This document shows, piece after piece, positions 28,569 through 30,812 of a DNA stretch of 33,839 bases. The notes beneath the pieces were generated by a model. It saw only the letters and a list, made by a program, of their open reading frames with translations, was not told the origin of the DNA and made no database searches. The number at the start of each line of letters is the position of its first letter. Position 1 is the stretch's first letter. Position numbers and translations under genes: made by a program. Location of the stretch: contig JAGYML010000009.1 in the NCBI GenBank assembly GCA_018400615.1, positions 1 to 33,839 on the forward strand. Direction: 5' to 3'. The DNA is from a bacterium. GTDB lineage: Bacteria > Bacillota_I > Bacilli_A > Izemoplasmatales > Izemoplasmataceae.

Positions 28569-29387
28569 ATGAAAAGAATACTCGTCACAGGGGTCACCAG
28601 CGGAATTGGTGAAGCGTTGCTTCGCCACTATGTGAATCAGGGCCATTTCGTCATAGGCATCGCCAGGAATCAAAAGAAAATCGATGCGCTTTCGAAGTCA
28701 ATAAAAGAAGCCAATTATAAAATTTATCGTGCGGATTTTTCCGCATTAAAAAGTGTGCGAAGCCTTTCTGAAAAAATCCATGAAGCATACGGAGATGGTT
28801 TGGACATCCTCATCAATAATGCAGGTCTCGTATCAAGTGGAAAAACGTTCACTGAAGATGGCTTTGAACTTCAGTATCAGGTCAATCATCTGAGTGGGGT
28901 GCTTTTGACACTGAACCTTTCACCTCTATTGATGAAGCGCAATGGGCGCGTAATCATGACCGGAAGTGACGCCCACAAGAAAGCGCGCTTTGAACGCGAA
29001 GACATTGAAGCCTTGACGCATTACCATGCGATCAGGAGCTATGCAAGAACCAAACTGTACAATCTTATGTTTGCCCACTGGCTCAATGCCTCACCCAAGA
29101 CCCCACACTGTTACGTCGTATCGCCTGGGCGTGTCAAGACGCCCATCGGCACCAAGGATACCTCGGTTTTTCACGCCACTTTCTGGAAGCTCTTCACCTA
29201 TTTTGGAAAAGGACCAGAAAAAGTCATAAAAACTTATGATTATTTGATAAAAACGCCTAGCTCAGAATTGACAGCCACCTATTATCATGACGCAAAAGTT
29301 CATGAAGAAAGCCCCCTTGCACAACACCAGTCCAATATCGATGCCTTGATGGACAAAACACTGAAAGACTTGAATCTGGACCAATAA
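28569..29387 (+). CDS. Short-chain dehydrogenase/reductase (SDR)
   Basis: VTGVTSGIGEALL Rossmann motif, LINNAGLVSSG, SYARTKLYNLMF (YxxxK), VVSPGRVKTPIGT. Confidence 0.92.
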   Translation: MKRILVTGVTSGIGEALLRHYVNQGHFVIGIARNQKKIDALSKSIKEANYKIYRADFSALKSVRSLSEKIHEAYGDGLDILINNAGLVSSGKTFTEDGFELQYQVNHLSGVLLTLNLSPLLMKRNGRVIMTGSDAHKKARFEREDIEALTHYHAIRSYARTKLYNLMFAHWLNASPKTPHCYVVSPGRVKTPIGTKDTSVFHATFWKLFTYFGKGPEKVIKTYDYLIKTPSSELTATYYHDAKVHEESPLAQHQSNIDALMDKTLKDLNLDQ

Positions 29388-29413
29388 AAAAAGGAGACCG
29401 CGTCTCCTTTTTT
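29388..29413. terminator. Bidirectional terminator
   Basis: aaaaaggagac-cgc-gtctcctttttt between convergent genes. Confidence 0.8.
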
Positions 29414-29800
29414 CTATTCCACCACGATTTCGACAATGTCGCCATCATTGGATTGAATGTCTACGAGTTTGCCCACAGTACCCGCTTCAATCATATCGAC
29501 AATGCTGGAAAAATCAAAGTCGGGATCGATTTCCTTGAGTTTGTCCAGTTTTGGAATGCCCTTCTTGCCGGGTGATTTCAAAACCATTTTTGCGAATTCC
29601 AGAGGAATCTGAACGTTGACCTTGTCACCATCACTGCTTAAAATTCGGATCTTGAACATTTTGAAAGCCTGTTTCTTAGGGGGCTTGGGACTCTGCTCAT
29701 CACTTTTTACTTTGAGGGCTTTAAGCAATTCAGAGCCTTCTTGTGGTGTGATCGTCCCTTTTTCAATCATTTGAAGTATTTTGAGTTTTTCCTCATTCAT
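29414..29800 (-). CDS. SHOCT-like domain protein, unknown function
   Basis: MNEEKLKILQMIEKGTITPQEGSELLKALK N-terminal helical motif and a beta-rich C-terminus; ATG 29800 overlaps the upstream gene end. Confidence 0.72.
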   Translation of the reverse strand: MNEEKLKILQMIEKGTITPQEGSELLKALKVKSDEQSPKPPKKQAFKMFKIRILSSDGDKVNVQIPLEFAKMVLKSPGKKGIPKLDKLKEIDPDFDFSSIVDMIEAGTVGKLVDIQSNDGDIVEIVVE

Positions 29801-30176
29801 TGTCTTCACCTCCAAGAAGATTCATGGCTTCTTGTGAACTGATTTCGCCATTGGCCAGTCTTTGAAGTACCTGGTCCTTTTCATAGTCCATCGGTTCATC
29901 GGAATCGTCATCCGTATAACCTAGGGCCGTAATGACTTCGCTGAGTTGTTTCTTGACTGTTGGATAAGAAACTTTCAATTCTTTTTCCAGTTTTTTGATG
30001 GACCCCTTGTTCTTGATGAAGAGTTCAATGAAGTAAAGATTTTCCTTTGAAAGATAGTTGAATTTTGACAATTGAAATTCGCCACTGATTTCAGTGTGGC
30101 AGTTAGAACACTGAAGCTTTGTTACATAGAGATCCTGTCCGCAAATGGGGCATTCTCCAATGACATGTTTAGCCAT
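29793..30176 (-). CDS. DUF2089-family protein (zinc ribbon + HTH-like + C-terminal helical motif)
   Basis: CPICGQDLYVTKLQCSNCHTEISGEFQLSKFNYLSKENLYFIELFIKNKGSIKKLEKELKVSYPTVKKQLSEVI...VLQRLANGEISSQEAMNLLGG. Confidence 0.85.
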   Translation of the reverse strand: MAKHVIGECPICGQDLYVTKLQCSNCHTEISGEFQLSKFNYLSKENLYFIELFIKNKGSIKKLEKELKVSYPTVKKQLSEVITALGYTDDDSDEPMDYEKDQVLQRLANGEISSQEAMNLLGGEDNE

Positions 30177-30187
30177 ATAATCACTCC

Positions 30188-30559
30188 TTAATATAGTTTG
30201 ATGTACACAGTCGCATCTTTTGACTCAACTGTGATGGTGGTATTCTTGGCATACTTGAGCATTTCAATCAAGGTCTCTTTTTCAAGCGTCCACTCTTCGT
30301 TCTTGCTCAGTTGTTTGTGCAATTGGTTGACAACCGCAAAGCGTATCAGTCCAAGTGGTAGAGGCAACGCAAAGAGGATGCGCAGGAACGCTCTAACGGC
30401 TTTTGATTCATCGTGAGGGTCCACATAGAGTTTCACAAAACGGGCCTTTTTCGGCTTGTCAGGCAAAAGGGTATGGTGCTCCAAAAGCGCATGGGCCTGA
30501 AAAATACTGATTTGACCATCCGCCAAATCGTTAAGGACTTCAAGTTCGTTCATAAACAC
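30188..30559 (-). CDS. SHOCT-like domain protein, unknown function
   Basis: N-terminal VLNDLADGQISIFQAHALLEHH motif, central hydrophobic segment; upstream member of the DUF2089 operon. Confidence 0.7.
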   Translation of the reverse strand: MFMNELEVLNDLADGQISIFQAHALLEHHTLLPDKPKKARFVKLYVDPHDESKAVRAFLRILFALPLPLGLIRFAVVNQLHKQLSKNEEWTLEKETLIEMLKYAKNTTITVESKDATVYIKLY

Positions 30560-30812
30560 CTCCGGGTATTGAAAAGGGTTCTATACACACATTATAGAGC
30601 GTGCAAACAAAAAAGTCAAACATAAAATGAAATAAATTAATATAAATGTTAATATTATTAAATTATAATATGCTACACATTTAAAATATAAACAAAATAA
30701 CTCAATTTAAAATGTTTTTATATATTGATTCAGTCAACTTTGTAGAAAAAAGGACGGCTTTGGTATATAATAGATAAAGATAGGATAAGGACACATTACG
30801 TAAGGTGATACA

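Follow-up and report, generated by a model that had tools for sequence, protein, structure and literature searches.

What does an operon do whose three products all carry the same short helical motif, and does this motif bring the three proteins together? The question is raised by a window of 33,839 nt (the whole stretch of DNA that was analysed) from a bacterium of the Izemoplasmatales, an order of which a cultured member has no distinct cell wall (PMC8397711); the host of this trio is probably wall-less.

The trio operon and its shared motif

The three genes, hereafter P1 (30188..30553, 121 aa), P2 (29793..30176, 127 aa), and P3 (29414..29800, 128 aa), lie head to tail on the minus strand, as do the signals given below. 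The start of P1 was corrected to the ATG at 30553, the GTG at 30559 falling within its GGAGG ribosome-binding site (30559..30563), and that of P3 to the ATG at 29800, where the start ATGAATGA overlaps the P2 stop by 8 nt; because P3 begins 8 nt inside P2, this suggests translational coupling from P2 to P3. Ahead of P1, TTGACT-17-TATAAT (30591..30619), whose layout recurs in relatives, reads as a strong promoter, and the operon closes on a terminator hairpin (29386..29412; identified from sequence and fold, -15.4 kcal/mol on the minus strand, z = -3.6) that it has in common with the convergent short-chain dehydrogenase (SDR) gene 3' of P3. The large divergent gene on the other side looks like a BcrAD/BadFG-type activase, and because both flanking genes point the opposite way, the trio is a self-contained unit. 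The layout and the promoter and terminator thus bear out the single operon proposed in an earlier note on this DNA, and the co-occurrence that the same note had anticipated extends to gene order, which is P1-P2-P3 in 47/47 loci compared (Izemoplasmatales, apparently wall-less), with a P1-P2 gap of 8-21 nt in 44 of the 47. Among 61 relatives, P1 homologs are found in 51 and DUF2089 in 54, and the trio extends to further families within the class. Many relatives have an exporter gene after P3, of the MFS type in 20 loci and of the ABC half-exporter type in 12 (L079-L126, L200-L213); the operon of the window has neither after P3. Separately, in a genus with 2.4-3 Mb genomes (L210, L219), either the trio or a set of three SHOCT-like genes lacking DUF2089 is surrounded by genes that look, by their sequences, like rsgA-rpe-thiN and asp23-fakA.

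P2 is a DUF2089 protein, in which a zinc ribbon (30060..30152, residues 9-39; PF22747, 1.4e-15, 57.5 bits, over the cut-off of 27.6) precedes a helix-turn-helix (HTH) domain (29913..30053; PF09862, 4.1e-21, 74.8 bits, over the curated cut-off of 33.4) and a C-terminal SHOCT-like motif. Its cysteines 9, 12, 23, and 26 are invariant in 37 relatives, and the zinc ribbon and HTH agree with the DNA-binding role that the earlier note had predicted. The motif common to the three proteins corresponds to the Pfam family SHOCT-like_DUF2089-C (PF22746), a two-helix motif. It is N-terminal in P3 (ILQMIEKGTITPQEGSELLKAL, 29702..29794), where PF22746 matches with 5e-11 and 42.2 bits, above its cut-off of 27 (3e-10 in a genome search), and C-terminal in P2 (VLQRLANGEISSQEAMNLLGG, 29811..29882), where the match lies at the expected position with 0.0016 and 18.4 bits, below the same cut-off. 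In P1, where it is again N-terminal (VLNDLADGQISIFQAHALLEHH, 30476..30550, residues 2-26), the Pfam search gave no PF22746 match for the window protein and gave matches under the cut-off for relatives (1.6e-4 and 0.0037; 21.6 and 17.3 bits), and the assignment rests on profile-profile comparison. Indeed, the motif segments of 36-47 relatives match one another with E = 5e-11 (P1-P2), 2e-11 (P2-P3), and 1e-7 (P1-P3), against 0.12-0.22 for non-motif segments of P2 compared in the same way, which puts the match across the three proteins beyond chance as far as sequence comparison goes. Structure predictions place two helices at the motif positions, at residues 3-11 and 17-25 in the P1 model. The earlier note was therefore right that one motif is present in all three sequences and stands at opposite ends of P2 and of its partners; the explanation it had named as fatal to its proposal, a generic low-complexity helix, fails, since the motif is a specific Pfam family.

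The two partners of P2 are related well beyond this motif. P1 and P3 are, by comparison of their sequences, full-length diverged paralogs in which the motif is followed by the same alpha/beta domain, which has no Pfam family in P1: their family alignments (47 relatives for P3) match across 108 columns with E = 1.6e-11, and the profile of each recovers the other family too in independent genome scans. The C-terminal domains alone, about 80 aa with predicted helices flanked by strands, match with E = 1.9e-8 in profile-profile comparison, when 30 column-shuffled controls gave 0.037-0.86 and a reversed alignment 0.0025. This homology contradicts the earlier description of P1 and P3 as two unlike effectors. 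It also divides the argument built on the shared module, which keeps its force for a link to P2 and loses it for P1 with P3, because paralogy alone explains their common N-terminal motif.

The earlier note had also placed a hydrophobic segment in one partner and IRILSSDGDKVNVQIPLEFAKMV in the other, and these are found in P1 and P3, respectively. The maximal 19-residue hydropathy reaches 1.94 in the window P1 and averages 1.9 in its relatives versus 0.85 in P3, and the P1 AlphaFold model (pLDDT 87.5) predicts a helix for this segment where P3 has a strand. The P3 model is poor (mean pLDDT 68) and unfit for structure search; with the P1 model, Foldseek returned nothing below E = 1.6 from the PDB, no solved structure related to P1, P2, or P3 was recovered with the profiles of the three families, and NCBIfam yielded nothing relevant. 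In nine loci of a sister family (L077-L085), a long N-terminal extension precedes the P1 part; it is a VanZ domain in the four of the nine put to Pfam (4/4). L086 instead encodes VanZ by a gene of its own immediately upstream of P1. P1 relatives of 260-300 aa had raised the idea of P1 as a shortened LiaX/Toastrack protein, which was rejected, the extra part being the N-terminal VanZ. Because of its hydrophobic helix and of this fusion in relatives, P1 is probably the membrane-facing member of the trio.

Motif-only proteins are found between P2 and P3 in some loci: 39 aa in L214 and L216 (at 4868 and 4933, respectively) and, in L086 (4737-4922), a 61-aa protein with two SHOCT-like motifs and little else.

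A phased array upstream of DUF2089 operons

Upstream of the trio, at 30627..30661 on the minus strand, lies an array of four boxes, TTAAT-N4-TTAAC-N7-TTAAT-N4-TTCAT, with one mismatch to TTRAYN4TTRAYN7TTRAYN4TTRAY; a second register at 30606-30640 takes in the -35 element, whose TTGAC serves as an in-phase box. The box pair TTRATN4TTRAT is found in 41/61 operon upstream regions versus 2 of 170 control regions, which are other upstream regions of the same loci (dinucleotide-shuffle mean 2.6), and box pairs spaced by 9, 12, 21, and 30 bp number 91, 55, 103, and 45, respectively, versus 2, 2, 2, and 4 in the controls. A distance of 21 bp corresponds to two helix turns. With up to two mismatches allowed, 25 of the 30 f1 promoters (f1 being the family of the window) and 9 of the 9 f4 promoters contain the 35-bp array, hence 34/39, against none of the 170 control regions and 2 of 600 shuffled sequences, counts that are partly circular for trio promoters, from which the motif was derived, and that overstate independent events because related genomes are not independent.

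DUF2089 also heads operons that have no P1 or P3, and none of their five promoters was used in deriving the motif. A zero-mismatch array stands directly before DUF2089 in 5/5 of them (three f2 relatives and two genomes of other families), and in the four of the five put to Pfam (4/4) a HAAS-Toastrack (DUF4097) protein comes next, the gene order in the f2 relatives being DUF2089, HAAS/Toastrack, and small membrane protein. Since zero-mismatch arrays occur in operons so differently composed, comparison establishes that the operator follows DUF2089. Short DUF2089 proteins without zinc ribbon had no array or just two-mismatch matches nearby. Loci with such short forms (L281-L286) mostly have an adjoining membrane protein of about 90-135 aa; their DUF2089 is similar to the one found in leaderless bacteriocin clusters.

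Of 36 promoters inspected, 32 have arrays upstream of the -35 element and 18 have them downstream of the -10 element; the distances of the upstream arrays to the -35 show a periodicity of about 10-10.5 bp (R = 0.88). With regard to the sign of the regulation by P2, upstream phased boxes would suit contact with RNA polymerase, and the copies downstream of the -10 would suit repression.

A second locus and its microprotein genes

The only zero-mismatch array of the genome itself is found on another contig (C29:55746-55780), the window promoter being among the one-mismatch sites. From this array it is 600 bp to a second P3-like gene downstream (C29:56381-56665), in a locus that adjoins a TetR-ABC-permease-permease operon. 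Within this locus (L278 7747-8669), four small ORFs with a YW core precede the P3-like protein, which is devoid of the SHOCT motif. A protein search of 20 genomes identified 11 second P3 paralogs outside the genome of the window, of which 9 have an array 0.4-1 kb upstream and 2 have none within 1.5 kb upstream, so that the second locus, too, is established by comparison. The space between array and paralog holds one to six tiny ORFs, which have good ribosome sites and are often repeated in tandem; examples are MNEAMIRTYEKIKADEAIRKNR in G035 and, in G011, MMHSGYSIIEYYEINKAKRDAMKGKK, which has three paralogs. Four of these loci (L361, L363, L360, and L368) show tandem microprotein genes of 22-38 aa, each with its own ribosome site.

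ORFs of similar size recur in two other places. They occupy the P2-P3 gap in 11 relatives; in L108-L117 and L127 the ORF there has 34-38 aa and an AGGAGG-type ribosome site, its position conserved and its sequence diverged. In family f3 they lie between the array and VanZ-P1 and carry a P-x-x-Y-W core, found again in the C29 microproteins of the genome itself. A single family uniting the three groups (second locus, P2-P3 gap, and YW type) was not supported, profile comparison giving E = 0.05-0.26. Differences between homologous copies number 58/36/84 on codon positions 1, 2, and 3 (chi-square 19.5, p = 6e-5), a distribution like that of translated genes under selection. Most of the microproteins are hydrophilic and have a basic tail; 49 of 53 carry a net positive charge, which sits in their second half. 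The set was gathered by eye and by ribosome site, and single members may therefore be spurious; its solid part is formed by the tandem paralogs, for which the ORFs are established by comparison.

The array also stands directly upstream of MFS homologs in G029 (L275) and G051 (L304). No clear target gene could be assigned to clusters in G171 C7 and G193 C1 (L276 3927-4033, L272 3350-3456) or to a lone site in G156 C1. In the genome of a cultured strain (G022), which has the trio at about 622,765-623,999 and a 35-aa ORF in its P2-P3 gap, the only clustered sites with up to one mismatch are at the trio promoter, and the regulon is therefore not universal. Matches with two mismatches were discarded, being hardly above the reversed-pattern control in these AT-rich genomes, and the regulon therefore rests on clusters with up to one mismatch and on conserved context; as judged from sequences, operator and regulon are well supported.

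A candidate membrane-response regulon and its known relatives

On this basis, the best supported reading of the sequences is that DUF2089 would be an autoregulatory transcription factor reading the phased array. P2 would bind the TTRAY boxes (at 0, 9, 21, and 30 bp) at the promoter and control its own operon; it would also control the second locus, with its tandem microproteins and P3 paralog, in its own and several related genomes, and the MFS exporter in some relatives. P1 would sit at the membrane through its hydrophobic helix, and the SHOCT-like modules would couple P1 and P3 to P2, such that a membrane disturbance could reach transcription without a kinase. We infer from the comparisons above the direct binding by P2, its sign, the contact between SHOCT-like modules, the membrane signal, and the function of the microproteins. 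Most likely, then, DUF2089 autoregulates a small membrane-associated stress regulon in which SHOCT-like modules link P2 to P1 and P3, and the genomic context makes a role of the trio in envelope stress plausible. The whole chain, from P2 on the phased array through its own operon and the second locus to a membrane signal passing via the SHOCT-like modules of P1 and P3, we hold to be somewhat better than an even bet.

Part of this chain would fall if the motif reflected common ancestry only and the three proteins did not assemble through it, which we consider doubtful while giving it real weight. The full-length paralogy of P1 and P3 speaks for it. However, the motif is all that P2 has in common with P1 and P3, and P2 carries it at the other end; in L214, L216, and L086 the operon also encodes motif-only proteins. 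Because of these two facts, a binding module is the easiest reading of the motif. More unlikely still is that the array is bound by some other regulator, or serves as an AT-rich UP element for RNA polymerase, with DUF2089 acting otherwise: the position of the arrays upstream of the -35 and in phase with it would fit, but the 9/12/21/30 spacing is far too specific for a UP element and is absent from the 170 neighboring upstream regions, the array tracks DUF2089 into an operon of different make-up, and copies downstream of the -10 are present in half of the promoters examined (18/36).

Another reading would turn the microproteins into peptides of a leaderless bacteriocin-like system, secreted by the adjacent ABC exporter, with the SHOCT/alpha-beta proteins as immunity proteins, and this, too, appears unlikely, if slightly less so than an array foreign to DUF2089. 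Known leaderless bacteriocins are larger, hydrophobic amphipathic peptides, unlike the microproteins, most of which are hydrophilic and basic-tailed. The second-locus microproteins are tandem and adjoin the TetR-ABC-permease-permease operon, as such a system would have it, and DUF2089 is annotated in the clusters of bawcin (PMC10707071), enterocin DD14 (PMC7332713), and thucin A (PMC9484092); in the thucin A cluster, three homologous peptide genes stand in tandem and ABC genes are also present. Yet the DUF2089 of bacteriocin clusters has only 89-98 aa, the size of the short forms without zinc ribbon sampled here (95-128 aa as called), and the one microprotein of the cultured strain is encoded within the regulator operon, with no exporter nearby.

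Autoregulation by DUF2089 through the phased array, thus preferred, would matter because DUF2089 regulators are widespread and uncharacterised: a sharply defined operator that tracks DUF2089 across different operons makes of it a transcription factor whose predicted targets, some of them in a cultured strain, can be put to the test. The regulon further reveals conserved microprotein genes that usual annotation cut-offs have likely missed, and the P1-VanZ fusion puts the regulator system at the membrane of apparently wall-less organisms. Operator, regulon, and microproteins, all of which escaped the earlier note, are more informative than the points it raised. The phased operator appears new, and the literature searched, with incomplete coverage, describes no DUF2089 operator, P1/P3 domain family, P1-VanZ fusion, or microproteins. 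More broadly, DUF2089 may head a kinase-free membrane-response system in apparently wall-less and related Bacilli, in which a 9/12/21-bp phased array would drive tandem cationic-tailed microproteins of 22-45 aa, SHOCT-alpha/beta proteins, and exporters, the regulon and peptide families being new, a view on which we are evenly divided.

Several known systems resemble parts of this picture. LiaX/YvlB (DUF4097) likewise begin with a SHOCT-like helix pair, after which comes a domain containing beta strands, and have a membrane-stress context; P1 and P3 differ from them in having no DUF4097/Toastrack match in Pfam. The membrane-stress context of LiaX/YvlB is found in PMC11237479. VanZ-like proteins (PF04892) are fused N-terminally to P1 in L077-L085 and encoded by the adjoining gene in L086, and are absent from the window's own operon. 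Leaderless bacteriocin clusters (bawcin, enterocin DD14, and thucin A) are alike in their DUF2089 annotation, small membrane proteins, ABC exporter, and nearby tandem small peptide genes, and differ in the length of DUF2089 given above. The closest framework is that of Ravi et al. 2024 (PMC11237479), whose account covers the architecture of DUF2089, the occurrence of SHOCT-like domains at either end of diverse proteins, and DUF2089/Toastrack contexts with a likely role in membrane-linked signalling, the main text giving no operator or microprotein for these systems. No Pfam match to Toastrack, PspC, LiaI/LiaF, or PspA was found in P1-P3 or in the flanking genes tested. The PSP/Lia-linked DUF2089 contexts of that study (PMC11237479) share with the trio a DUF2089 protein made of zinc ribbon, HTH, and C-terminal SHOCT-like motif, SHOCT-like operon partners, and a proposed signal from membrane to transcription, whereas the operon partners in the window are two SHOCT-alpha/beta paralogs.
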